Below are positions 1-11,129 of a DNA stretch of 11,129 nt, one piece after another (position 1 is the stretch's first letter; each line of letters opens with the position of its first letter). A program made the translations under genes and the position numbers. The notes under the pieces are model-generated. The model searched no databases, was not told where the DNA came from, and worked only from the letters and a program-made list of their open reading frames with translations. This stretch comes from an uncultured Rhodanobacteraceae bacterium (GTDB taxonomy: Bacteria > Pseudomonadota > Gammaproteobacteria > Xanthomonadales > Rhodanobacteraceae): the NCBI GenBank assembly GCA_913053815.1, contig CAJXGK010000037.1, forward strand, positions 1 to 11,129. Direction: 5' to 3'.

Positions 1-675
1 GTTGTGGCCGGGCACGGCTTCGCGAATCAGATTCACGCTTTCCACCGTCTGGCCGAGTCGATCTCGAATCACCTGTTGCAACCCGGGGCGACCCGAAAGC
101 CAGTTGTTATAAGCCAGCTCCAGACCTTCCTGGCCATGATCGTCGATGTTGGTAAAACCTATGACGTGAGCGCTGACCTCTCCAGATGGGTAATAGCGCC
201 GATATTCGCGCTGCTTGTAAACGCCGGGAATATCCAGTGCCAGTATGACCTGAGCGGCTTGCGGACTCATCATCCTGCGCAGGTACACAAAATCGCGAGT
301 GGCGCGCTCTTCAAGACGCCGCTGCAAGCGCGGCGCACTCACCCCCAGAGCCTTGGCAAGTTCGGGGATGCGGTCCGCATGCTGCAGCAACTCAGTCGGA
401 TGGGTCCACAGTGAGTCCACCGGCGTGGACACCGCTAACGGCACCCCATTACGGTCAAAAATACTACCTCGGGATACCGGAATCGATACCTTGCGCAGGA
501 AACGCGCATCGCCCTGCTGCTGCAGAAAGGTTCTGTTGACCACCTGCAGATCCACGGCACGGGCAAGCAGGCCGAAGGCCATCATTCCCAGCAGCCCGGC
601 CACCAGCAGCATACGACGCCACGGATGAGGCGGTGGTGGCATGGAGTGGGCCGGGGAGGCTATAAATACCTTCAT
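1..675 (-). CDS. ftsI: Peptidoglycan transpeptidase FtsI (PBP3), N-terminal part
   Basis: This is the septal class B penicillin-binding protein that cross-links peptidoglycan at the division site. Only the first 225 codons lie in the window; the gene runs off the left edge, so the transpeptidase active-site motifs are not visible. The N-terminus has a short cytoplasmic stretch rich in Pro and Arg, then one membrane segment at about residues 21-40 ([20 protein letters not shown]). The periplasmic class B region follows, with the typical RGSIFDRNG motif near residue 72 and a later [16 protein letters not shown] stretch. The ATG start overlaps the stop codon of the upstream rsmH-ftsL reading frame as ATGA, so translation is probably coupled. 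Position in the dcw cluster directly after ftsL agrees with this identity. Confidence 0.96.
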
Positions 676-950
676 TGGCGCACCACCCGGACCTGGGCTG
701 GATCAGGACTGATCATGCCGAGTTGCGACCGCGCAATAGCTTCGATATGCGCAGGGTCCGCCCAAGTGGCCTGCTCCAGTTCCAAACGCCCAAATTCAAT
801 ATTCAATTGATCGCGGTGATTCTGCAAGCGGGTCAACTGGATAAACAGTTCACGGTTCTCATTGCGCGCCCAGACCACGGCAATGGCACTGCTCATCATG
901 GCTGGCAGCAACAGGACTACGGCAATGAGATCCAGGCGCTGCTTGCCCAT
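672..950 (-). CDS. ftsL: Cell division protein FtsL (domain of the fusion, possible internal start)
   Basis: FtsL is a small bitopic membrane protein that with FtsB and FtsQ activates septal FtsWI. This segment gives a complete FtsL of 92 residues: a short cytoplasmic start, a membrane helix at about residues 8-25 ([19 protein letters not shown]), a periplasmic coiled coil ([19 protein letters not shown]) and the family's C-terminal part with [19 protein letters not shown]. It lies in the same frame as rsmH with no stop between them. The ATG at 950 could serve as an internal start, but the only good Shine-Dalgarno (GGAGG) ends 23 bases before it. That GGAGG lies about 14 bases before an in-frame TTG three codons upstream of the ATG. 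The N-in topology of FtsL is compatible with a cytoplasmic RsmH domain in front. Confidence 0.85.
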
Positions 951-1796
951 GACCCGCAACGGTGATTCAGGCACCTCCGGCGCGGGCAGCCCCCGTGACA
1001 CACGGGGGGCCTGGGGGCCACGCATGAACTGCTTGACGATACGATCCTCAAGTGAATGAAAACTGATCACTACCAGCCGGCTGCCTGGCTTGAGACATTG
1101 ACAGGCCGCCAGCAACCCCCGCTGGATCGACTCCAGTTCCCCATTCACCTGGATCCGCAGAGCCTGAAAAGTCCGGGTCGCCGGATGTCTGCCGGGAATC
1201 CGGTACCGCACCACCTGCGCCACAGCATCGGCCAGTTCACGGGTGCCGGTAAAGGGACGGCCTTGTTCGCGGCTCCCGACTATGACCCGGGCAATACGCC
1301 GACTCATACGCTCTTCCCCATAGCGCCACAACACCTCGGCAATTTCCTTCTCACTGGCACGAGCCAGAAAATCCGCCGCCGATTCGCCGCAACTTGGATC
1401 CATGCGCATATCCAAGGGGGCATCGGTCTGAAAACTAAAACCCCGCCCGCCCTCATCCAACTGCGGAGAGGAAATACCTAGATCAAGCAATACGCCGTCA
1501 AGACCCTCGGCAGCCGCATCCCATTCGCCCAGATCAGCGAAATTGCCGTGCCGGATCACAACCCGAGGGTCGGCGGCAAAGCGCTGATGGGCTACGACAA
1601 TCGCCTGCGGATCTCTATCCATCAATAACAAACGTCCCTGCTGACCCAGACGCGCCAGCAAGACCTCGGCATGCCCCCCACGGCCAAAAGTGCCATCCAA
1701 ATAACGGCCACCAGCGCGCACAGCGAGGCCAGCCATTGCTTCGTTCAGCATCACCGGGATATGTTCCCGCTTCGCCATCGCCGCCACCCCATGCAT
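672..1796 (-). CDS. rsmH: 16S rRNA m4C1402 methyltransferase RsmH fused in frame to FtsL
   Basis: RsmH (MraW) methylates N4 of C1402 in 16S rRNA using SAM. The first 282 residues are RsmH: the SAM-binding DGTFGRGGH at 34-42, then [20 protein letters not shown] at 101-120, and [10 protein letters not shown] near 243. RsmH proteins normally run to about 310 residues and end in an NPRARSAVLRVAE-like tail. Here the frame reaches the LR-x-x-GK motif (LRVMGK, about 280-285) and passes without a stop into a complete FtsL (residues 283-374). About 30 C-terminal residues of RsmH are therefore missing. The start at 1796 has a Shine-Dalgarno AGGGA 7 bases upstream that overlaps the mraZ stop; an alternative ATG lies at 1778. 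Whether the cell makes a 374-residue fusion, a separate FtsL from an internal start, or both cannot be told from sequence. Confidence 0.93.
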
Positions 1797-1806
1797 TGTC
1801 AGATCC

Positions 1807-2253
1807 CTACAGCCTCAATTCCGCCATGTCCTCGCTGATTTCATCCTCGCCAATGGTTTGTCGAATCTTGGCAAGATGCGCTTGTTCACTCCAAAGCTCG
1901 AACTTATTACCCATACCCAGCAACACCGCCCGTTTCTCGATCCCCGAAGCATTGCGCTGACTGGCGGGAAGCAACACCCGACTGGATCCATCGGCTTCGA
2001 GCATGGCCGCCGCACCCACCAACTTCATCTGCAGGTTGCGATGTACGGCCTTGACACTGGGCAAGGCATTGATCTCGTCACGCACTCGTTGCCACTCATC
2101 CTGGGGAAACAGCCACAGACAGCCCTGCTCGAAGGGATTGTAGGTCGCCACCAAGCGGTTGGTACAAACATGTGCCAGCAGATCCCGGTAGGCCACCGGG
2201 ATGGTCAAACGACCTTTGTCGTCGATAGTGACCGCTGTCTCACCTTGAAACAC
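1807..2253 (-). CDS. mraZ: Transcriptional regulator MraZ
   Basis: MraZ is a DNA-binding protein with two AbrB/SpoVT-like halves that represses the dcw operon it heads. The 148 residues match the usual length of about 150. The first half has [14 protein letters not shown] (about 11-24) and the second has [15 protein letters not shown], the two copies of the family motif; NKFELW near 118 is also typical. The start is a GTG at 2253 with a GGGGAG Shine-Dalgarno, and the start fits the family N-terminus MFxGE. The stop lies 10 bases before the rsmH start. Its own operator repeats are visible directly upstream. Confidence 0.96.
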
Positions 2254-2260
2254 AGTAGCT

Positions 2261-2296
2261 CCCCACGAATTCCCACGTTTTCACACTAAATGCCAC
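2261..2296 (-). promoter_or_regulatory. MraZ operator: four GTGGGN-type repeats at 10-bp spacing
   Basis: Read on the minus strand towards mraZ the repeats are GTGGCA, GTGTGA, GTGGGA and GTGGGG. On the plus strand they start at 2291, 2281, 2271 and 2261, exactly 10 bp apart. MraZ is known to bind direct TGGGN/GTGGGN repeats with this phasing upstream of its gene. The two repeats nearest mraZ are perfect and the two distal ones each have one mismatch. The distal repeat overlaps the -10 box, which fits autorepression. Confidence 0.88.
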
Positions 2297-2323
2297 CATA
2301 GTCTCAGGTTTTACGACTGTCAA
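2295..2323 (-). promoter_or_regulatory. Promoter of the mraZ-rsmH-ftsL-ftsI operon
   Basis: On the minus strand there is a perfect -35 box TTGACA (2318-2323), a 17-base spacer and a -10 box TATGGT (2295-2300). Transcription would start near 2288, giving a leader of about 35 bases that carries the MraZ repeats and the mraZ Shine-Dalgarno. Confidence 0.82.
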
Positions 2324-2676
2324 CAATTTTTGCTTGCAGATCAAAGACAAAGCGCATCTTACCGGTATTTCATGCGGGTTCTTATAATGTGTCGTAAAGA
2401 CAATGAAATCATTGAATAAATAGATTGAGTGATTCGGAGTCTACGGTTACACCCCTTTATACTCGTAGCGTTTGTTAGGCCATCAGTCAGGTTCAGACAT
2501 GAGCGGACTATAGAAATGGTACAAAATACTCATGCACTTTCGAATCATTACTTGCTCGGATTCATCCTTTCCAATGAGTTTGCTGCCACACGCATTTCTG
2601 TTGGCTGTGCTGATGGCAACGGGCTCCCATCCCCCTGTAGTAAGCGTCCTCACCACGCCGTAGGTTTGGGGGTCTC
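2324..2676. other. Gene-free stretch with no recognised feature
   Basis: Several short open frames exist on both strands (for example 2429-2683 plus and 2483-2686 minus), but none has a convincing Shine-Dalgarno or a recognisable product. A possible plus-strand promoter is TTACCG (2359-2364) with an 18-base spacer and TATAAT (2383-2388). It would read rightward into the hairpin-rich element that follows. In related genomes mraZ and rnpB usually lie close together, so this stretch may belong to inserted DNA. Confidence 0.5.
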
Positions 2677-2705
2677 CGGGTGACACTGCTCTACGGTGTC
2701 ACCCG
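2677..2705. repeat. 10-bp perfect inverted repeat (hairpin or terminator-like)
   Basis: The arms CGGGTGACAC (2677-2686) and GTGTCACCCG (2696-2705) are exact reverse complements around a 9-base loop and are followed by TTTGT. It is the first of a row of hairpins. It could be a terminator for rightward transcription, an end palindrome of a mobile element, or part of a longer structured RNA. Confidence 0.7.
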
Positions 2706-2710
2706 TTTGT

Positions 2711-3022
2711 AGACGCTCTGCGTCCAGAGCGACAAGCTTCCGCCCACCGGCGGTGGGCGTACTCCTACTCTCACTCGCCTGAGAAAAGAGGCGAAGAGAG
2801 GGCGGCCGGGGTTCGCGCCAGGCGGGTACGTTCGGGACTGCGGGCGTTCGTCGACAGCCCATACCTGGAGCCTGTCCGACCTGGGAAGAATCTACTGCGG
2901 CGGTGGGTGACGGCAGGCGAGGCCCGCAGGGTGGCTGCAGGAATGCGGATCAGACCCGGACGGCACCCACGTACCATGCGGATCTTTACCCCGCAAGGCA
3001 CCCAACCGGGGTGTCCTTGTTT
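2711..3022 (+). ncRNA. Candidate structured RNA, possibly HEARO/omega-RNA-like
   Basis: About 310 bases without a convincing gene hold a series of strong hairpins. These are CGCTCTG/CAGAGCG (2714-2731), CGCCCACC/GGTGGGCG (2741-2759), and a two-part stem CTCTC+CGCCT/AGGCG+GAGAG (2768-2800). A possible long-range pair GTGGGTG/CACCCAC joins about 2904 to about 2963. The last hairpin, CAAGG-CACCC/GGGTG-CCTTG (2994-3019), is followed by TTTT. The size, stem density and the TGAGA...GGCGAAGAG stretch after the second hairpin recall the HEARO/omega RNAs that precede iscB genes, but no iscB follows; this family assignment is from memory and inference. The plus strand is chosen from that resemblance, the T-run and the upstream TATAAT. 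It could also be the end of a degraded mobile element. Confidence 0.35.
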
Positions 3023-3187
3023 TGGTTCACGACTTATATCAAGCACTACTTTGACAGGAAAGTAGTGAACTCGTACGCCGCAGGCGCAGGCAATAACCTG
3101 GAGAAGTCATAGCCCCCCGCTGCGGTGATCCATACGTCAAGTAGGCCGATTCATCGATAACAGGTACCGGTTCTATAAGAAGAAAAG
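3023..3187. other. Gene-free spacer with a 9-bp palindrome
   Basis: The stretch contains a perfect inverted repeat CACTACTTT (3044-3052) / AAAGTAGTG (3059-3067) around the loop GACAGG. It could be a terminal hairpin of a small IS-like element that includes the structured RNA on its left. A GTG-started frame of 33 codons (3011-3112) crosses it but overlaps the preceding hairpin and matches nothing I recognise. No other feature is seen before the rnpB 3' end. Confidence 0.5.
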
Positions 3188-3204
3188 GGTACCCCAAATA
3201 AAAA
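3188..3204 (-). terminator. Possible end of rnpB transcription
   Basis: On the minus strand the closing helix of rnpB is followed at once by TTTTTATTT, then a GGGTACCC palindrome and TTTTCTTCTT. This is the likely region where the rnpB precursor ends, but the stem is weak and the exact point is uncertain. Confidence 0.35.
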
Positions 3205-3550
<346 letters not shown>

Positions 3551-3555
3551 GGTAC

Positions 3556-3561
3556 ATTGTA
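3556..3561 (-). promoter_or_regulatory. -10 box of the rnpB promoter
   Basis: TACAAT on the minus strand lies 5-6 bases before the predicted rnpB 5' end. No good -35 box is visible at 16-18 bases. The upstream part of this promoter would lie inside the 3' end of rsmI. Confidence 0.5.
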
Positions 3562-3577
3562 GCGGTAATACGATCGA

Positions 3578-4405
3578 CTATTCTTTGGCGTCCTCATACA
3601 AGATCCGCCGGGGCGCGCCACTAATAGCTGCGGCCAGCCGTGCCGCCCGTCCTGGAGGCAATTCCCGGCGTAACAGAGCAAAGATGCGCCGACCTTCGCA
3701 GCTTTTGCGCTCCTCGTCACCCCCCTTGGCACCGGCCACCAGCAACACCAATTCACCGCGACATTGATTGTCATCGGCAGCCACCCGGGCCGCCAGCTCT
3801 CCCAGCGACATGGACAACACAGTCTCGTGCAACTTGGTCAGTTCACGGGCCAGGGTCGCTTCACGCTCGGCACCGAAAATGCTGGCAGCATCAGCCAGGC
3901 AAGCACGGATACGATGCGAGGATTCGTAAAAGATCAGGGTCCTGGTCTCTGCCGCCAAGCTGGCCAGGCGCTCATAACGTGCGGTCTGTCTGGCAGGCAA
4001 AAAACCCTCGAACACGAACCGGTCACTAGCTAAACCCGCCACCGACAGGGCCGCGATCAGCGCCGAGGGCCCCGGTAGCGTCGCCACCTTTAGCCCCGCC
4101 TGCCGGGCCGCACGCACCAGCCGATAACCGGGATCACTGATCAGCGGCGTGCCGGCATCCGAGACCAGAGCAATATCCTCACCGGCCTGCAGCCGCTTGA
4201 GCAGCTGCGCCGCGACGTTCTCCTCATTATGCTCATGCATGGCCCGTAGCGGCGTAGCGAGACCGAAATGGGCCAGCAAATGGCGGGTATGTCGGGTATC
4301 CTCCGCGGCGATCAAGGCCACGCTACGCAAGGTATTCAAGGCTCGCGGCGATAAATCACCCAGATTGCCAATCGGTGTTGCCACCACCCAGAGTGTGCCA
4401 TTCAT
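3578..4405 (-). CDS. rsmI: 16S rRNA 2'-O-ribose C1402 methyltransferase RsmI
   Basis: RsmI 2'-O-methylates C1402 of 16S rRNA with SAM, the same nucleotide that RsmH methylates on its base, so both C1402 enzymes are encoded in this window. The 275-residue protein has the tetrapyrrole-methylase fold: LWVVATPIGNLGDLSPRAL at the N-terminus, AAEDTRHTRHLLAHFG, HEHNE, VSDAGTPLISDPGYRLV, LPGPSALIAALSVAGL, FVFEGFLPAR, TLIFYESSHR and ARELTKLHE. The open frame extends to 4465, but the ATG at 4405 gives the usual family start and has AAGG 9 bases upstream. The C-terminus ends 28 bases before rnpB. It is divergent from lpoA. Confidence 0.96.
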   Translation of the reverse strand: MNGTLWVVATPIGNLGDLSPRALNTLRSVALIAAEDTRHTRHLLAHFGLATPLRAMHEHNEENVAAQLLKRLQAGEDIALVSDAGTPLISDPGYRLVRAARQAGLKVATLPGPSALIAALSVAGLASDRFVFEGFLPARQTARYERLASLAAETRTLIFYESSHRIRACLADAASIFGAEREATLARELTKLHETVLSMSLGELAARVAADDNQCRGELVLLVAGAKGGDEERKSCEGRRIFALLRRELPPGRAARLAAAISGAPRRILYEDAKE

Positions 4406-4492
4406 ATATCCATGCCTTGGTATGCCTTTATCTGCTATCGGGGTGCATTGGGCTATCATCGCCAAGCCGCCTCTTTTGTGCAGGATTCGACG
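4406..4492. promoter_or_regulatory. Divergent rsmI / lpoA intergenic region
   Basis: These 87 bases separate two divergent genes and should hold both promoters. No clear -35/-10 pair is seen; TATCAT at about 4454 is a weak -10 candidate for lpoA. The AAGG of rsmI and the AGGA of lpoA are visible at the two ends. Confidence 0.4.
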
Positions 4493-6277
4493 ATGCGTCG
4501 TTACTCTCTCGTGCTTGCCATCTTACTCACCGTGGGTCTTAGTGGTTGTGCCACCCTGGGTGGTGGACCAAGCCCGGCGCAACAGGCAGCCATCGCCCAA
4601 GCCCAGGTATTGGAAACCCGTGGCGATTTCCGGGCGGCCGCCTCGATCTGGCTCAGTTTGGTAAACCAGGTCCCTGCTCAGGCCGATCACTACCGCCTGC
4701 ATGCCGCCGAGGACTGGCTCGCCAGCCAGCAACCCAAGCGTACCCAGCAGCTGTTACAGCAAATCAATACCAAACGGCTGCATGGCAACGACATCGCCCG
4801 TTATAACCTACTGCAGGGTGAATTGGCCGAAAGTGCCGGACATTATCAGCAAGCCCTGGCACTAGCCAGCATGCTACCGCAGACGCTACCGCGACCTTTG
4901 GCCATTCGGCGTGACCAGATGCTGGCGCGGACTGCCGCCGCCAGTGGCGACACCTGGGCCGCCGTGGCGGCCCGTATGCAACTGGATCCACTGCTGCTGG
5001 ATCCTGCCAAGGCCAAAAATGCCGCCCGACTCCTGGCCTTGTTGGGTCGGGTAGGTGTTCAGGGCCTATTACACCAGGCCACCCAACTGCCGACCGGCAA
5101 TCCTCTGCTACCCTGGATCGGTCAAGCTTTGCAGCGTCTCGGCAGCCGCCTGCCCAGCAACATGCCGCAGTTCAATGCCCCCGCGGGCACCCTCCTGGCT
5201 CAAGGCCAACATCTGAAGCGCGAAGGCTTTCAAAGTTATCAGCAGATCGGCTTGTTATTGCCATTGAGCGGGCCACTCTCCGCCGCCGGTAAAGCGGTTC
5301 GCGACGGCTTTCTCGCCGCCTATTTCCAGGCGGGCGATCATGCCGGACCCCGCCCGATGATTCGTATCTACAACACCCAAGGAACTACCGCGGGTACGCT
5401 TGTCGCCTACCATCAAGCCCTTACCGAAGGGGCTGATCTGCTCGTCGGACCCTTACTCAGACCCGCCGTGGATGCGTTGTTTTCTCAAGGTGAACCCGCC
5501 ATCCCGGTACTGGCGTTAAATCAGCCACAGAGCGCCATACCGTCTCCCGCCAATAGTGCTGAATTTGCGCTGATGCCAGAAAGTAATGGGGTGTATGACG
5601 CCGAATATCTACTCAATCACGGCATTCGTCAGGCTATTGTCTTTCATGCCAGTGATTCCAGATCGAGTCGGGCCGCCATAGCTTTTCAGGCCCAATTCGA
5701 AGCCGGCGGCGGAACCGTCAGGGCCGTGCAGACCCTGCCCGTAGGCTCGGTGGACTACGCGGCCCTCATCAAAGCCGCAGCACCCAATCTTGCTGACAAT
5801 GGCGGCATCTTTATTGCAGCACCGCTGGAACAGGCCCGGCTACTGGTGCCGCAAATCCGCGTTGCGCAGCTGCAACAGTTGATTGTCGCCACACCCCAGG
5901 TCTTTTCCACCCACAGCAACCCCGGTTTGGATCGCGACTTGGATGGCGTCGTCTTTCCGGATCTGCCCTGGTTATTCAACACCCAACCCGGTCTGCCGCC
6001 ACGCCAGGAACTGCAGCGCTGGATCCCGGAAATCCGTGGCCCTGGTGCTCGCTTGTTCGCCTTCGGCATGGACGCTTTTTCCCTCAGCCCCTATCTCTCC
6101 TGGCTGCGTACTCATCCCGGCAGTTACATCGGCGGAGCCACCGGCCAACTGACCGTCGATGCCACCGGCCAAGTACAGCGCCTACCGGTATGGGCTCGTT
6201 TCGACTATGGCGTGGCCCACACGATTTCCGGTGATCTGGCCACTAACAACGGGCTCGACGAGCCCAGATCACACTGA
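4493..6277 (+). CDS. lpoA: Penicillin-binding protein activator LpoA (outer-membrane lipoprotein)
   Basis: LpoA is a lipoprotein that reaches from the outer membrane to stimulate the bifunctional peptidoglycan synthase PBP1A. The 594-residue protein begins with a lipoprotein signal peptide: Arg residues, a hydrophobic core and the lipobox LSGC with the modified Cys at position 19. An N-terminal helical TPR-like region follows (EARGDF-type repeats and QALALA segments, about 30-230). A C-terminal periplasmic-binding-protein-like domain starts at about residue 250 with IGLLLPLSGPLSAAGKAVRD and includes DLLVGPLLRPAVD and FAFGMDAFSL. The frame is open to 4412, but the ATG at 4493 places the signal peptide at the N-terminus and has AGGA about 8 bases upstream. 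It is followed 6 bases later by yraN, as is common. Confidence 0.94.
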   Translation: MRRYSLVLAILLTVGLSGCATLGGGPSPAQQAAIAQAQVLETRGDFRAAASIWLSLVNQVPAQADHYRLHAAEDWLASQQPKRTQQLLQQINTKRLHGNDIARYNLLQGELAESAGHYQQALALASMLPQTLPRPLAIRRDQMLARTAAASGDTWAAVAARMQLDPLLLDPAKAKNAARLLALLGRVGVQGLLHQATQLPTGNPLLPWIGQALQRLGSRLPSNMPQFNAPAGTLLAQGQHLKREGFQSYQQIGLLLPLSGPLSAAGKAVRDGFLAAYFQAGDHAGPRPMIRIYNTQGTTAGTLVAYHQALTEGADLLVGPLLRPAVDALFSQGEPAIPVLALNQPQSAIPSPANSAEFALMPESNGVYDAEYLLNHGIRQAIVFHASDSRSSRAAIAFQAQFEAGGGTVRAVQTLPVGSVDYAALIKAAAPNLADNGGIFIAAPLEQARLLVPQIRVAQLQQLIVATPQVFSTHSNPGLDRDLDGVVFPDLPWLFNTQPGLPPRQELQRWIPEIRGPGARLFAFGMDAFSLSPYLSWLRTHPGSYIGGATGQLTVDATGQVQRLPVWARFDYGVAHTISGDLATNNGLDEPRSH

Positions 6278-6283
6278 GCGGCG

Positions 6284-6643
6284 ATGTACGGAAAAGGCTC
6301 CCGCTTCGAGGCCCGTGCCGAAAACGCCCTGCAACAGGCCGGCCTCGGCACCGTGCAGCGCAATTACCGCAGTCGCTTCGGTGAAATCGACCTGATCATG
6401 GAGGATGGAACCACCCTCGTGTTCATCGAAGTCCGCTACCGCCGCCATTCCGGCCAGGGTGGCGCCGCCGCTTCGGTCGGCCCCCGCAAACGCCAACGTC
6501 TACTGCGTACCGCGGCCCTGTTTCTGGCCGAACATTCCCGCCATGCCCAACGCCCCTGTCGTTTTGACGTGGTCAGCTTCGACGGACCCGAAAATGAAGC
6601 TCGCCTCCAATGGCATCGCGCCGCCTTTGAAACCACCGGATAA
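6284..6643 (+). CDS. yraN: YraN family (UPF0102) endonuclease-like protein
   Basis: This 119-residue protein belongs to the UPF0102 family, which has a restriction-endonuclease-like fold; its cellular role is not well established. The family core is intact: G-x-x-x-EARAENALQQAGL, then NYRSRFGEIDLIMEDG and LVFIEVRYRRHSGQGGAA, carrying the E-I-D ... E-V-R/K-Y-R residues of the nuclease-like site. SVGPRKRQRLLRTAALFL and RFDVVSF complete it. It starts 6 bases after lpoA and ends 7 bases before the oxidase gene, so all three are probably one operon. No frame damage is seen. Confidence 0.93.
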   Translation: MYGKGSRFEARAENALQQAGLGTVQRNYRSRFGEIDLIMEDGTTLVFIEVRYRRHSGQGGAAASVGPRKRQRLLRTAALFLAEHSRHAQRPCRFDVVSFDGPENEARLQWHRAAFETTG

Positions 6644-6650
6644 TCCCTAC

Positions 6651-8033
6651 ATGAAGTCCACTCCGCTCCCCCCCAGCCTGCTCGAAAGCCTGAAGAAGTC
6701 ACTCCCTGATGGCTGTTTTATCCAGGATCCAGCCACCTGCCTGAGCTATGCCTACGACAACTCCCGCCGTCAGGCCTTACCCCAGGCAGTGGCCTTGGTC
6801 GATCGCCATGAACAGGTGGTGAGTATCGTCCGTGCCTGTCACCAACACCGGGTGGCACTGACCGCCCGAGGCCGGGGCACCAATACCACCGGGGCGACGG
6901 TACCTATTGCCGGCGGCGTCGTCATCTCTTTCGAGCGCATGACCCGGATTCTACGGATCGCCCCTGAAGACCGGATTGCGGTCGTCGAACCCGGCGTGCT
7001 CAATGCCGACCTGCAGGCGGCCATCGCCCCCAGCGGCTTTTTCTGGCCGCCCGATCCGACGTCAGCCCCCTACTGCAGCATCGGCGGCAATCTGGCCTGC
7101 AACGCCGGTGGCCCACGGGCAGTCAAATACGGGGCGACCCGCGACAATGTGCTGGGCCTGCGTGCAGTGAGTGGCGATGGCCGTGAGTTCCGTTGTGGCG
7201 GCACCACCACCAAAGGGGCCACCGGCTACGATCTCACCCGACTGCTGATCGGCTCTGAAGGGACCCTGGCCCTGATTACCGAGGCCACCCTCAAACTCAC
7301 CCCCCGAGCCGAGGCCCTGGCCACCCTGCGCGCCGAATTCAGCGATGTCAGCGCTGCCGCCGCGGCGGTGGCCCGAATCATGGCCCAAGCGGTCACCCCC
7401 TGTGCGCTTGAATTTCTCGATGATGCCTGCCTGGATCTGGCCCGCCAACGTGAACCCGAGGTGCTACCCAACGACACCGGCGCCTTGCTGATGATCGAGG
7501 TGGACGGTCAGGCAGCCACCCTGGAGCATGCTGTGAAAGCCGTTTCCAAGGCCGCCGCAGGCAAGGGCCTGCTGCGCCTCCAGGTGGCCAGCGACCGCGG
7601 CGAAGCGGCCCAGTTATGGAGGGTCCGCAAGGCCTTGTCACCGGCACTGCGTGATCTTTCGCCCCACAAGATCAACGAAGATGTGGTGGTCCCGGTCAGT
7701 CAGGTCCCAGCTCTGATTCAAGCTACTCGCGAATTGGCCTCGCGTTTCGAATTTCCCATCGTTTCGTTCGGCCACGCCGGCAACGGTAACCTGCATGTCA
7801 ACCTGCTGCCCCGCAACACTGCAGAACTGGCCCGCGCCGAAGACTGCCTGGCCAGCCTGTTCGCAACGGTCATCGAACTCGGAGGCACCCTGTCGGGCGA
7901 ACACGGTATCGGCCTGAGTAAACGGGATTTCATGCCCCAGGCCGTGGACCCGAATGCGCTGCACCTGATGCAGGCCCTCAAGCAGAGCTTCGATCCACAC
8001 GGCATTCTCAATCCCGGCAAGCTGCTGCCCTGA
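6651..8033 (+). CDS. FAD-linked oxidase of the GlcD / D-2-hydroxyacid dehydrogenase type
   Basis: The 460-residue protein is a flavin-dependent oxidoreductase of the GlcD family (glycolate oxidase subunit, D-lactate and D-2-hydroxyglutarate dehydrogenases). The N-terminal FAD-binding PCMH domain shows LTARGRGTNTTGATVPIAGG (70-89), VVEPGVLNADL, the PPDPTS...SIGGNLACNAGGPRAVKYG stretch (134-161) and TGYDLTRLLIGSEGTLALIT (191-210). The C-terminal domain has GHAGNGNLHVN (374-384) and GEHGIGLSKR (416-425), whose His residues are typical of the active and metal site, and ends with FDPHGILNPGK. The frame is open further upstream through yraN, but the ATG at 6651 gives the right length. The substrate cannot be told; a GlcD-like enzyme usually works with GlcE/F, and none are seen here. 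Confidence 0.9.
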   Translation: MKSTPLPPSLLESLKKSLPDGCFIQDPATCLSYAYDNSRRQALPQAVALVDRHEQVVSIVRACHQHRVALTARGRGTNTTGATVPIAGGVVISFERMTRILRIAPEDRIAVVEPGVLNADLQAAIAPSGFFWPPDPTSAPYCSIGGNLACNAGGPRAVKYGATRDNVLGLRAVSGDGREFRCGGTTTKGATGYDLTRLLIGSEGTLALITEATLKLTPRAEALATLRAEFSDVSAAAAAVARIMAQAVTPCALEFLDDACLDLARQREPEVLPNDTGALLMIEVDGQAATLEHAVKAVSKAAAGKGLLRLQVASDRGEAAQLWRVRKALSPALRDLSPHKINEDVVVPVSQVPALIQATRELASRFEFPIVSFGHAGNGNLHVNLLPRNTAELARAEDCLASLFATVIELGGTLSGEHGIGLSKRDFMPQAVDPNALHLMQALKQSFDPHGILNPGKLLP

Positions 8034-8185
8034 ACCGGCATCACATCGCGATAATCCGGGGTATCTCGAAAACCATGACCAGCGCGCCCAACGCAGAGAG
8101 TCGCACAGTGAGCAACGAGCACCCGACCCCACCATCGGTTTGCACAATAGATTTTTAGCGGTGTTCAGTAGCATCAGCGGCATCT

Positions 8186-8500
8186 ATGAAACTCCACATC
8201 CTCAATGACCTGCACCTCGAGTTCGAGGATTTCGAACCTCCGGCCACCGATGCTGAGGTCGTCATTCTGGCGGGTGACATCGGGGTGGGAATGGGTGGCC
8301 TGCACTGGGCGGAGCATCGGTTCCCGGGCAAACCCGTGATTTACGTGCCGGGAAACCACGAGTTCTACCGTCATGACCTCACCCTGATCGACGAGCTGAC
8401 GACACAGGCGCCGGACCCTATTCATGTTCTGAACGACATGCATATTCCGGCCCAAGATGAACACTCATTCCGGTTCAACGTGAACGCCTGTTCTGGTTGA
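8186..8500 (+). pseudogene. Truncated calcineurin-like metallophosphoesterase
   Basis: The first 85 or so codons match the N-terminal half of a small metallophosphoesterase. It has the metal-binding motifs DLHLE (D-x-H, residues 8-12), LAGDIG (G-D) and VIYVPGNHEFY (G-N-H-E). The family normally runs to about 240-270 residues, with later H and GHxH metal ligands. Here similarity is lost after IHVLND (about residue 87), and the frame ends at 104 residues with an unrelated tail. A functional di-metal site cannot form, so it is best read as a 5' remnant. The break lies within about 80 bases of the left-end repeat of the next cassette. The start codon is the ATG at 8186, with no strong Shine-Dalgarno. 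Confidence 0.75.
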
Positions 8501-8522
8501 ATGGGCAACGGGCAACGATTAA

Positions 8523-8561
8523 TAACTTGAGAAAATGTCAAATGTAAGGTGTGATCCCGTG
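8523..8561 (+). repeat. Cassette left-end repeat, copy 1
   Basis: This 39-bp sequence contains AAAATGTCAAATGTAAGG and ends in GATCCCGTG. It recurs in direct orientation at 9570-9608 with 37 of 39 bases identical; the differences are at 8551 (G versus A) and 8555 (T versus C). Both copies lie just beyond the 3' end of minus-strand cargo genes. Confidence 0.93.
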
Positions 8562-8580
8562 GTCTGCTTTTAATCCCTCT

Positions 8581-9039
8581 TCAGGATTTTTCACCGTAAC
8601 AGGATAATTCTTGAATATGGCCGAATTCTTTTACCTTTGAAATGTGTTTTTTGTCATTCGTTATAAAAATAGCATTACTTGAAATTGCCAACGCATGATA
8701 CAAGCAGTCGGTCAACTCGGGATAACCACTTTTCCTGTTCCCTGTTCTGGCCATCTCTATAGCTTTCATGCGTACTTCAATATTGGGAACAACAATGTGC
8801 AGTATTTCCTGCCTGGCTAGTTCTTCAATATATTTTAGATGCTGTTCTACCTCTTTAATGTCGTCGAGATTACCACAAAGAACTTCTGTGATTTCATCTA
8901 AAACGAGGCCTGGAACTATAATTTGAATTTGTTCTAAAATTGCATCCTTAAGAATTTGTTTTGCGTTATCCTGTAATGGCCGACAGTAGATGTATTCAAG
9001 GAAGACGTTTGCATCCAGGACGTACCGGCTATTTTCCAT
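8581..9039 (-). CDS. PIN-domain toxin (VapC-like ribonuclease)
   Basis: The 152-residue protein is a PIN-domain RNase, the toxin of a type II toxin-antitoxin pair. The acidic residues expected of the metal site are present: D9 in YVLDANVFLEY, E49 in LVLDEITEVL, D111 in ELTDCLYHALA and D129 in AIFITNDKKH. It is longer than most VapC proteins (about 130 residues) but within the range of PIN toxins. The start codon overlaps the end of the antitoxin gene by 11 bases, the usual sign of a co-translated pair. The gene is AT-rich compared with the core genes to its left, which suggests horizontal acquisition. The RNA target cannot be predicted. Confidence 0.88.
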   Translation of the reverse strand: MENSRYVLDANVFLEYIYCRPLQDNAKQILKDAILEQIQIIVPGLVLDEITEVLCGNLDDIKEVEQHLKYIEELARQEILHIVVPNIEVRMKAIEMARTGNRKSGYPELTDCLYHALAISSNAIFITNDKKHISKVKEFGHIQELSCYGEKS

Positions 9040-9331
9040 CTCTGATACTTGCCTTGATTCTTTTTTGTTTACGCATGGATCTTAAAATGTCAACAGGGTT
9101 TTGGTCTACTCCTATCCTCGGTAAACTATTCAATTCTTCCAATAAAATTTTTTGCCTGGAAGTAATTGAAGGGCATCCCGATACGCGGCTGTTTGAACTC
9201 TCAAGAGGGACAATTCTGGCTAAAGGTTTCCCTTTTCTTTCAATAGTGACAATATCGCCCTTGTGAAAAACCTCATCCAGCAAAGTGCCAAATTGTCTGC
9301 GAGCGGCGGTTACATCAATTATTCTTTCCAT
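9029..9331 (-). CDS. Phd/YefM-type antitoxin
   Basis: The 100-residue protein opens with the Phd/YefM DNA-binding pattern (IDVTAARRQFGTLLDEVFHK, then GDIVTIERKGKPLARIVPL), in which the N-terminal half binds its own operator. The C-terminal half (about 55-100) should wrap around the PIN toxin and neutralise it. The ATG at 9331 has GGAGA 7 bases upstream. The order antitoxin then toxin, with a short overlap, is standard for these modules. A strong promoter lies directly upstream. Typical Phd-type antitoxins are 75-90 residues, so this one carries a slightly long basic tail. Confidence 0.88.
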   Translation of the reverse strand: MERIIDVTAARRQFGTLLDEVFHKGDIVTIERKGKPLARIVPLESSNSRVSGCPSITSRQKILLEELNSLPRIGVDQNPVDILRSMRKQKRIKASIRDGK

Positions 9332-9352
9332 AACGTTCTCCGTTAAACCATA

Positions 9353-9365
9353 TTGACTATATCAA
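9353..9365. promoter_or_regulatory. Possible antitoxin operator
   Basis: TTGA and TCAA flank five bases just downstream of the -10 box, in the leader of the toxin-antitoxin operon. The place fits autorepression by a Phd-type antitoxin, but the arms are only 4 bp. Confidence 0.3.
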
Positions 9366-9367
9366 CC

Positions 9368-9395
9368 ATTATAGTTCGAGACCTAACAATGTCAA
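9368..9395 (-). promoter_or_regulatory. Promoter of the toxin-antitoxin operon
   Basis: On the minus strand a perfect -35 TTGACA (9390-9395) is separated by 16 bases from a perfect -10 TATAAT (9368-9373), about 37 bases before the antitoxin start. Confidence 0.85.
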
Positions 9396-9413
9396 TTTCC
9401 AACAGTCCAACTC

Positions 9414-9452
9414 CAACGGGGGGCAACCCATTGAATAACGACAAGAAACCTT
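9414..9452 (+). repeat. Cassette right-end repeat, copy 1
   Basis: The 24 bases at 9429-9452, starting CATTGAATAACGACAAGAAA, are identical to 10923-10946. Just inside, CAACGGGGGG (9414-9423) matches CAACGGGGG at 10898 of copy 2. Copy 1 lacks about 10 bases between the two blocks. It lies upstream of the toxin-antitoxin promoter. Confidence 0.9.
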
Positions 9453-9464
9453 CTCGGGTTCCCA

Positions 9465-9540
9465 CCACGCTCTGCGTGGGGAAAAACGGTTCCACGGGCG
9501 CTTGCGTAGCGATGGAGGGATGCCGTCCAATAACTCCTCT
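9465..9540. repeat. REP-like hairpin sequence
   Basis: CCACG-CTCTG-CGTGG (9465-9479) is a perfect hairpin within GGGTTCCCAC...GTGGGGA. A second weaker hairpin follows, CGCT/AGCG within GGGCGCTTGCGTAGCG (about 9498-9513). The core CGCTCTGCGT also occurs at 2715-2724. Such short GC-rich palindromes in clusters resemble REP elements of proteobacteria. It fills the spacer between the two cassettes. Confidence 0.5.
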
Positions 9541-9569
9541 GCTGACCGTAAAGGTCCTGTTAAGTGTTG

Positions 9570-9608
9570 TAACTTGAGAAAATGTCAAATGTAAGGTATG
9601 ACCCCGTG
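9570..9608 (+). repeat. Cassette left-end repeat, copy 2
   Basis: This is the second copy of the 39-bp repeat found at 8523-8561, in the same orientation, 1047 bp further on. It lies about 70 bp beyond the 3' end of the ATPase gene, as copy 1 lies 19 bp beyond the toxin gene. Confidence 0.93.
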
Positions 9609-9677
9609 TGCCGTGTGTTTCTTTTAAATCACTTAAATTTATGACCCTTAAAGTTAGCGTTCTGATCAGTTTTGTCA

Positions 9678-10844
9678 CTAAAGATCAATGGTATTGCTGA
9701 CCCTGAATGTTTTACTAATGGGTATGTTTTTTGTCGCAGTGGTCAGCGTACATACCTGTTTTACTGTTTCTTCACCAAATATTTTGATCAGCTTTTTGAT
9801 GTTCTTTGGTATTTCACCGCTTTCATCCTGCCATTTACATTCATACAGGTTCAGCAGGTTGCCTTCAGGAATCAGAAAATCCACTTCTCGTCCGTCTTTG
9901 TCGCGGAAATAATAAAGCGCATCTCCTTTCCCCTGGTTATGCAGGCTTCGCAGTAATTGCCCCAGCGCAAAGGTTTCAAAAATCGCGCCAAGTAACGGGG
10001 TGTTTCTTAATATTTCTGTATTCTGAATATTCATCAGATAACAAAGCAGACCGGTGTCCAGAAAATATAGCTTGGGTGATTTGATAATGCGTTTTCCAAA
10101 GTTTTCGAAATAAGGCTTAAGCAGGTAAATAATATTGGAAGCTTCCAGTACGCTTATCCAGCTTTTGATGGTATTGGTACTCACGCCGACTTCGGTGGCA
10201 ATTCGATTCATGGAAAATATTTGCCCCGAGCGTATTGCCAGGAGACGCATAAACTGGTCGAATTGACGGATATTACGAATGTTAATAAGTTGACGTACAT
10301 CACGTTCAATGTACGTTGCCATGTAATCGCTGAAAAATCGACCGGGTTCCAGTGCATGTTGATAGATTTCGGGATAACCGCCTTTGATGATCCAGGTCAG
10401 TATGTTTTCTGGCGTGGGTACCAGCCTGAAATGTTTACTCAATTCTCTGGCAGACAGACTATGTAAATGAATAATCGAAACTCGCCCGGCAAGACTTTCG
10501 GATACCCCTTTCATTGACGGGAACTGCTGTGACCCGGTCATAATGAATTGACCCGTTGCATTGCGTTGCCGGTCAATCTGAATTTTAATGGCCCTGAATA
10601 ATTCTGGTGCATACTGGATTTCGTCAATAACCAGTGGCACGCCATGAGAGGTGAGAAAGAAATCCCCATTCTCACTTGCCTGCCTGGCCTCAAGCGGAAC
10701 ATCCAGGCTGACATAAGGAAGATCAGGGAATAATCGATTCAATAAACTGGATTTACCTGTTTGACGGGCACCGGTTATTAGTAAAGCGGGTCGTGTTGAA
10801 CGGGTTTGCTCGATTAACGATGAAATTTCACGTTTTACCCACAT
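9678..10844 (-). CDS. AAA-type ATPase with DUF4143 C-terminal domain
   Basis: The 388-residue protein belongs to the widespread, poorly understood family of P-loop ATPases with a DUF4143 domain. Walker A is GARQTGKS (25-32), Walker B is LVIDEIQ (71-77), a sensor-like TGSQ is at 103-106 and SLAGR follows. The middle has a helix-turn-helix-like stretch (NRIATEVGVSTNTIKSWISVL). The C-terminal part has GAIFETFALGQLL and REVDFLIPEGNLLNLYECKW, which carries the D...E-x-K pattern of a nuclease-like fold. The frame is open to 11048, but that extension reads through the right-end repeat, and the family start MxVKREI fits the ATG at 10844. No good Shine-Dalgarno is seen. The gene is AT-rich like the toxin-antitoxin pair. 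The function is unknown; some relatives are found in mobile or defence regions. Confidence 0.87.
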   Translation of the reverse strand: MWVKREISSLIEQTRSTRPALLITGARQTGKSSLLNRLFPDLPYVSLDVPLEARQASENGDFFLTSHGVPLVIDEIQYAPELFRAIKIQIDRQRNATGQFIMTGSQQFPSMKGVSESLAGRVSIIHLHSLSARELSKHFRLVPTPENILTWIIKGGYPEIYQHALEPGRFFSDYMATYIERDVRQLINIRNIRQFDQFMRLLAIRSGQIFSMNRIATEVGVSTNTIKSWISVLEASNIIYLLKPYFENFGKRIIKSPKLYFLDTGLLCYLMNIQNTEILRNTPLLGAIFETFALGQLLRSLHNQGKGDALYYFRDKDGREVDFLIPEGNLLNLYECKWQDESGEIPKNIKKLIKIFGEETVKQVCTLTTATKNIPISKTFRVSNTIDL

Positions 10845-10853
10845 GGTTCGGAT

Positions 10854-10882
10854 AATATGCAATGTAAATGCAGATAGGTCAA
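10854..10882 (-). promoter_or_regulatory. Possible promoter of the ATPase gene
   Basis: On the minus strand TTGACC (10877-10882), a 17-base spacer and CATATT (10854-10859); TATTAT with a 19-base spacer is an alternative. Transcription would start only a few bases before the ATG at 10844, so the message would be nearly leaderless, which agrees with the missing Shine-Dalgarno. Confidence 0.4.
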
Positions 10883-10897
10883 TAACTAAGATCAAAG

Positions 10898-10946
10898 CAA
10901 CGGGGGTCGGACCTACGTAACACATTGAATAACGACAAGAAACCTT
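10898..10946 (+). repeat. Cassette right-end repeat, copy 2
   Basis: The outer 24 bases (10923-10946) are identical to 9429-9452. The inner part GGGGGTCGGACCTACGTAAC (10902-10921) is a degenerate reverse complement of the left-end repeat (GTAAGGTATGACCCC), so this cassette has imperfect terminal inverted repeats. Confidence 0.88.
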
Positions 10947-10954
10947 GATATATC

Positions 10955-10983
10955 GGCTGTTTTTCGGCTTAAACAGCCTTTTT
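10955..10983 (+). terminator. Rho-independent terminator (plus strand)
   Basis: The arms GGCTGTTT (10955-10962) and AAACAGCC (10971-10978) are exact reverse complements around an 8-base loop and are followed by TTTTT. It reads rightward, although no plus-strand gene precedes it in the cassette. It may have ended a host transcript before the cassettes arrived. Confidence 0.7.
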
Positions 10984-11129
10984 AAGGGCAAAAACCACGT
11001 TTTAAGGAGGAAACGCATACCCCGTACCTTTCTCACCACTGGAACCACAAACCATGCAGTCTGACCACTACTTATACAAATGAGAAAACCTACAACTTCT
11101 GCTGAAGAGCCAAAAATCTAACACATATG
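10984..11129. other. Gene-free right end with an orphan Shine-Dalgarno
   Basis: No gene is recognised here. A perfect AAGGAGG occurs at 11004-11010, but no start codon follows at a useful distance. The end of the stretch, up to GAAGAGCC at 11104-11111, recalls the terminal inverted repeats of ISL3-type insertion sequences, but no transposase is present and this is weak. Confidence 0.3.

Follow-up and report, generated by a model that had tools for sequence, protein, structure and literature searches.

Among described repeat systems, the closest parallels to the repeats discussed here are the TIRYT repeats of the TIRtrons and the REPtrons, in which inverted repeats bracket a gene for a RAYT-like protein (RAYT, REP-associated tyrosine transposase) and also form dimers and clusters (Di Nocera et al. 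2013, PMC3733652); the same paper reports the octamer GGGGWSAS for some of the terminal inverted repeats (TIRs). We analyzed an 11,129-nucleotide stretch of DNA (the "window") from an uncultured Rhodanobacteraceae bacterium (assembly GCA_913053815.1, contig CAJXGK010000037.1, positions 1 to 11,129), in which a Phd/PIN toxin-antitoxin pair (unit 1, 8523–9452) and an AAA_14/DUF4143 ATPase gene (unit 2, 9570–10946) lie side by side, each with the same left repeat and the same right repeat. The first-pass annotation of this DNA took each unit, with its two ends, to be a mobile cassette lacking a recombinase of its own. Our analysis makes it fairly probable that both units belong to one foreign block which was moved as a whole and whose spacers bear RAYT repeats, the common ends being debris of two RAYT/TIRYT repeat families; the units probably do not represent a novel type of cassette. 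The two gene sets would share ends because both sit between leftover transposase-gene repeats inside the foreign block.

The repeats and their relatives

The left repeats (37 of 39 positions identical) and the right repeats (27/28 for 9425–9452 and 10919–10946, including 24/24 for 9429–9452 and 10923–10946) lie where the first-pass annotation had placed them, and both pairs exceed chance (BLAST E values within the window of 3.3e-11 and 2.5e-6, respectively). The motif ACGGGGG stands to the left of both right-repeat copies, and the alignment gives 10 more nucleotides in the second copy alone. Pattern scans, which allowed up to three mismatches unless stated and used the reversed ("backward") pattern as control, found exactly two copies of each repeat, all in the window, in the metagenome-assembled genome (MAG) to which the contig belongs (G000; 2.36 Mb, 437 contigs, 81% complete). 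We call the family of the left repeat "family 1" and that of the repeat preceding the right repeat "family 2"; both labels were coined in this analysis.

The core of family 1 is ATGTCAAATGTAAGGYMTGACCCC. An exact-pattern scan of a one-genome-per-species collection gave nine loci. One of them is the same block in the genome HyVt-418, another MAG accounts for two, and a match in a Lachnospiraceae MAG may be due to chance. Within an even sample of the class (369 genomes, its own included) the core is found in 12 genomes, again counting its own (backward control 0), and the left repeat is present in 0 of 98 other genomes sampled from the same genus, family and order. Copy numbers per genome include 30 in G469, two in HyVt-418 and two in its own MAG. 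Three core patterns were tried against viral contigs, none of them with an exact match. Random 24-mers from the window had 0 of 40 matches in 20 control loci, a comparison of little weight, as the left core also has none there.

In other genomes copies of the left repeat are scattered: some adjoin RAYT genes, some form short inverted dimers, and others are in tandem or single. In all fetched loci, inverted family-1 pairs 850–1050 bp apart enclose a RAYT-like open reading frame (ORF) at six of six distinct places, and two of these ORFs are shortened (183 and 225 amino acids). A pair census of 46 loci, several of which had been picked for their RAYT, gave 11 inverted pairs with their CCCC ends outward (five at 903–981 bp, three at 328 bp and three at 26–49 bp), same-strand pairs numbering 17 and 14, and one pair with ends inward. 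With NF047646, the NCBIfam model for REP-associated tyrosine transposases (cut-off 80 bits), RAYTs bracketed by family 1 or near it score 76.9, 77.7, 78.5 and, for a shortened ORF, 50.8 bits, all below the cut-off; the RAYT of locus L007, which is near family 1 and not bracketed by it, scores 81.5 bits, above it. Family 1 is like the TIRtron/TIRYT repeats in bracketing RAYT-like genes in inverted orientation and in forming dimers and clusters. The octamer GGGGWSAS is fitted by 64 of 95 copies (family 1 mostly begins GGGGTCAG), though not exactly by the two of the window. The short dimers of family 1, 26–49 bp apart in loci L111, L115 and L119, likewise resemble the REPINs (Bertels and Rainey 2011, PMC3116915). 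Judged by its sequence, the left repeat is a member of a family that brackets RAYT/TIRYT genes in other proteobacteria; such bracketing is absent from the window, and none was seen in its own MAG.

Three of the inverted pairs (L089 2206–2557 and 4410–4761, and L090 3964–4315, all in G430) are exactly 328 bp apart, start to start, and resemble a gene-less mobile element; the L090 pair has its end within an ORF that by eye is istB-like.

The family-2 repeat is GGGGTCGGACCTACGYAAC, and it is followed by the 5' leader of a RAYT gene. In the window the stretch 10902–11025 begins with ACGGGGGTCGGACCTACGTAAC, and 10895–11075 aligns with a stretch of G282, with the region upstream of a RAYT start in G323, and with that upstream of a broken RAYT in G346. 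The remainder of the stretch aligns with the leader of the G323 RAYT (locus L161; 61.7 bits with NF047646, under the cut-off) through the ribosome-binding site and start; the same leader in G346 enters a RAYT start that is broken after 17 codons, and the frame following it in G282 reads PRAHRY, to be compared with MPRAHRYF in the G323 protein. In G323 the family-2 repeat stands, inverted and once with a mismatch, on both sides of this RAYT-type gene, which differs from those at family 1. These leader alignments identify the 24–28 bp right repeat as part of a RAYT leader, which is present in the window once with its repeat (10902 onward) and once as a remnant (9416–9452); the RAYT gene itself is lost in the window after the leader (10902–11025).

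Among the 18 genomes that carry the left repeat, to which the right-repeat pattern search was directed, two have the right repeat: HyVt-418, in the same block, and G282, whose one three-mismatch match is the joined-flank allele described below (one backward-control match, in G140). A DNA search with 10886–11060 found relatives in 6 of the 369 class genomes, its own included; those in the 5 of 368 others are weaker and, where readable, are RAYT leaders or repeats. With two mismatches the family-2 pattern does not rise above noise in several genomes (backward-control matches in G430, G360, G345 and G468), and we therefore relied on matches with zero or one mismatch alone. Locus L160 of G346 (26–1468) carries, after its RAYT leader and 17-codon broken RAYT, what by eye is an antitoxin and PIN-like toxin pair.

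A foreign block with alleles that lack it

The block interrupts a gene that we call metallophosphoesterase-like (the name is our reading; Pfam assigned the truncated ORF to none of its families). This gene is whole in G010, of the same genus, where likeness to the window (92% identity over 5400–8436, rising to 96.8% in the final 1.75 kb) stops at 8436–8438. Neither the remainder of the gene nor a right junction was found in its own MAG, where the query matched only the region that adjoins the gene downstream (contig C13, 82–83%). At the point of insertion is the end of an insertion sequence (IS) of the IS21 family: 404 plasmid records match it, and the 20 listed all begin at 8439 (58–63 nt, 79–86% identity). 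In two plasmid records that were opened, istA starts 221 and 246 nt inside this end, and istB is inside as well. The IS21-family end marks the left boundary of the block. Compared with the IS21 family (ISAs29-like), the window has the left terminal sequence at its insertion boundary and lacks the rest: no istA or istB was recognized by eye among its ORFs, and no right end was found in the window or in loci L012, L156 and L181, although one could lie beyond the contig.

The block is also present, as 8439–10885 and in other surroundings, in HyVt-418, on a 5.6 kb contig (L012) that carries both units together and lacks the second right repeat, that of unit 2. The differences between the two cluster at the ends (two in the first 26 nt, three in the last 22 and one between). 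The best match in HyVt-418 to 5400–8438 is 72% over 272 nt, so recent transfer of 8439–10885 between hosts would be the simplest reading. The G282 allele, which also has other surroundings, joins the IS21 stub directly to the RAYT-leader stretch, with GCAAC at the joint; either insertion or deletion would account for these alleles. Plasmid searches with 8500–11129 and with 10886–11060 gave no matches.

The idea that this is mobile DNA has therefore held up, as has part of the expectation that relatives would have empty sites: alleles without the block do exist, in G010 and, at another place and in another genome, in G282. The breaks in these two alleles, the only ones found, near 8438 (G010) and at 8516/10897 (G282), are not at the unit ends, none having been found at 9452/9570 or 10946. 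Since the block is shared whole and there are alleles without it, it is the block that moves, and each unit is a mere gap between repeat-bearing spacers.

Genes of the block

Table 1. Features of the block and its left flank in the window
Feature	Position	Strand	Basis and remarks
Metallophosphoesterase-like gene, 5' part, cut at about 8438	8186..8438	+	Frame continues to 8500; intact 247-aa gene in G010
IS21-family left-end stub	8439..8516	+	Plasmid matches; 98.7% over 78 nt in G282
Stretch common with HyVt-418 contig	8439..10885		99.75%; both flanks differ
Stretch missing in G282 joined-flank allele	8517..10901		GCAAC on both sides in window
Left repeat copy 1	8523..8561	+	Family 1; GATCCC end faces gene
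PIN-domain toxin	8581..9039	-	PF01850 6.6e-13
Phd/YefM antitoxin	9029..9331	-	PF02604 (PhdYeFM) 5.4e-8; TIGR01552
Remnant of repeat family 2 and RAYT leader	9416..9452	+	Holds right repeat copy 1 (9425-9452); 27/28 to 10919-10946; alignment
Inter-unit spacer	9453..9569		GC 0.58
Left repeat copy 2	9570..9608	+	Family 1
AAA_14/DUF4143 ATPase	9678..10844	-	PF13635 6.6e-49, PF13173 8.5e-24; ATG start by comparison with L012; longest frame to 11048
Repeat family 2 (10903-10921), 5' leader and ribosome-binding/start region of lost RAYT gene	10902..11025	+	Holds right repeat copy 2 (10919-10946); 93.9% to G282, 132 columns; aligned upstream of RAYT in G323, broken RAYT in G346

Pfam bears out the cargo first proposed for the two units (table 1), and the description of their genes as minus-strand and AT-rich is accurate, the GC content being 0.39 for 8523–9452 and 0.42 for 9570–10946 versus 0.60 for 1–8438. 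In domain content, and in the order and overlap of the Phd and PIN genes, the units match known Phd/PIN modules and AAA_14/DUF4143 ATPases, with nothing unusual. A plasmid search found no relatives of the PIN protein; for the ATPase it gave 371 records, each with less than 60% identity. No recombinase was shown in the window, in agreement with the first-pass annotation, and Pfam found no integrase among the three block genes (attC sites and an integron integrase were not specifically searched for). Outside the block, Rfam at gathering scores reported for the window RNase P RNA (class A) alone, at 3203–3548 on the minus strand (332.8 bits).

Toxin-antitoxin genes near family 1

At 48 family-1 sites without an adjacent RAYT, 76 of 120 neighbouring proteins have at most 200 amino acids, and about 14–19 of these 76 belong to toxin-antitoxin Pfam families (a range because output was per family and one protein may count twice), versus 2 of 58 at the 49 control sites, which are intergenic. 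Fisher tests give p 0.008 to 0.0006, values on the optimistic side because sites that share a genome are not independent of one another. The two control counts are a HEPN and an NTP_transf_2 (nucleotidyltransferase) protein. The window, HyVt-418, RAYT-bracketing loci, proteins over 200 amino acids, and L111 and L114 (each with a RAYT no more than 1.2 kb away) were left out of the count, as were general helix-turn-helix (HTH) families (HTH_3: 5 near, 2 distal); AAA_21 (putative AbiEii toxin), which matched two control proteins in the full set, was treated as a general ATPase. The control sites came from 9 of the 14 test-site genomes. Of all 120 neighbours, two match AAA_14 and one DUF4143. Short proteins at least 1 kb from a family-1 repeat, drawn from L082–L120 alone, also include about 15 of 104 in toxin-antitoxin families (p 0.033 versus control), and the near and distal shares do not differ significantly (p 0.54 or 0.085). 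The simplest reading, which these figures suggest, is that family-1 repeats and toxin-antitoxin genes accumulate together in shared accessory islands, not in tight cassettes. In the literature, no title or abstract opening seen links toxin-antitoxin genes with RAYTs, REP/REPIN repeats or miniature inverted-repeat transposable elements (MITEs).

Several individual loci may be mentioned. A Methylococcaceae MAG contig (L013, 146–2160) has repeated family-1 copies and an antitoxin-like gene twice: the first copy is truncated, and after the second come a PIN-like gene and then a gene for a group II intron-like reverse transcriptase (by eye; UPF0175 and DUF3368 matches agree). In L097 of G469 (34–1325), two same-strand family-1 doublets, similar to each other but not identical, enclose a pair that by eye is VapBC-like. 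In L101 of the same genome (3915–4425), an ORF that by eye is BrnT-like begins between two family-1 copies on the same strand, and its end overlaps the second.

Origin of the shared ends

We consider it highly improbable that the units are cassettes defined by a left and a right repeat and moved singly by a recombinase acting in trans, as was first proposed. The same order of ends in both units, the existence of alleles without the block and the VapBC-like pair of L097 would fit such cassettes, but no further left-gene-right unit was found around other genes, the right repeat being present in two of 18 genomes, in one as the same block and in the other without the gene sets. Moreover, the units are together in HyVt-418, where unit 2 has no right repeat; same-strand family-1 pairs also flank genes that by eye are unlike toxin-antitoxin genes (L103, L007); and the left repeat is scattered beside RAYTs, as dimers, in tandem and alone, an occurrence that the first-pass annotation had itself named as counting against its view. 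An active part of RAYT/TIRYT repeats in recruiting or carrying toxin-antitoxin genes, with a repeat pair serving as transposon ends around the gene, is also unlikely. The excess of such genes near family 1 favours this, but short distal proteins are enriched too, without a significant difference from the near ones, and no empty site was seen for a gene with its two ends. We give equally little credence to a broader version, in which these repeats are ends that collect toxin-antitoxin and DUF4143 genes into arrays passed between distant gammaproteobacteria by a transposase in trans. IS ends are frequent mis-join points, and the MAG is fragmented, with the contig stopping at 11129, so a contig misjoined at the IS21 end, or a binning error, might be suspected; this too is improbable, since other assemblies have the same order of stub plus block (HyVt-418) and stub plus leader (G282).

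The preferred reading, a foreign block moved whole with debris of two repeat families in its spacers, has points against it as well. The MAG of the window differs from what is described for TIRtron/TIRYT repeats in having only two copies and no neighbouring transposase: neither repeat has further copies there, the window has no RAYT, and none of the five Y1_Tnp matches in the MAG was linked to either repeat. The family-1 copies of the window, GGGGTCAT and GGGATCAC, miss the GGGGWSAS octamer by one and two bases (7/8 and 6/8 positions). The left end clearly resembles the second right end in inverted orientation (0 of 1000 shuffles) but not the first (275 of 1000), folding of one window spacer ("spacer B") barely exceeds that of shuffles (z -1.18), and the window's spacers are single or composite, unlike clean REPIN dimers. 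Finally, the contig stops short of the insertion's right end, and the short HyVt-418 contig could be misbinned.

On the preferred reading, repeats of two RAYT/TIRYT families would have been laid in the spacers in an earlier host, deposited by transposases in trans or left over from transposase genes; a RAYT/TIRYT transposase may mobilize such repeats. The foreign accessory block that interrupts the metallophosphoesterase-like gene is made up of the IS21-family end stub, the Phd/PIN pair and the AAA_14/DUF4143 ATPase. The matching ends of the units would be only apparent, a result of the position of each gene set between one spacer ending in family 1 and another beginning with family 2. The block would spread horizontally as a whole and be trimmed or extended at the repeats, and it might have moved via an IS21 transposase in trans, by recombination at repeats, or in some other way.

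Scattered transposase-linked repeats can thus make unrelated genes resemble one family of cassettes, and the window provides a concrete case of such repeats travelling within a horizontally moved toxin-antitoxin block. If the local excess of toxin-antitoxin genes near family 1 persisted in comparison with an island-matched control, that would be a hint that RAYT-type transposases do more than spread their own repeats.

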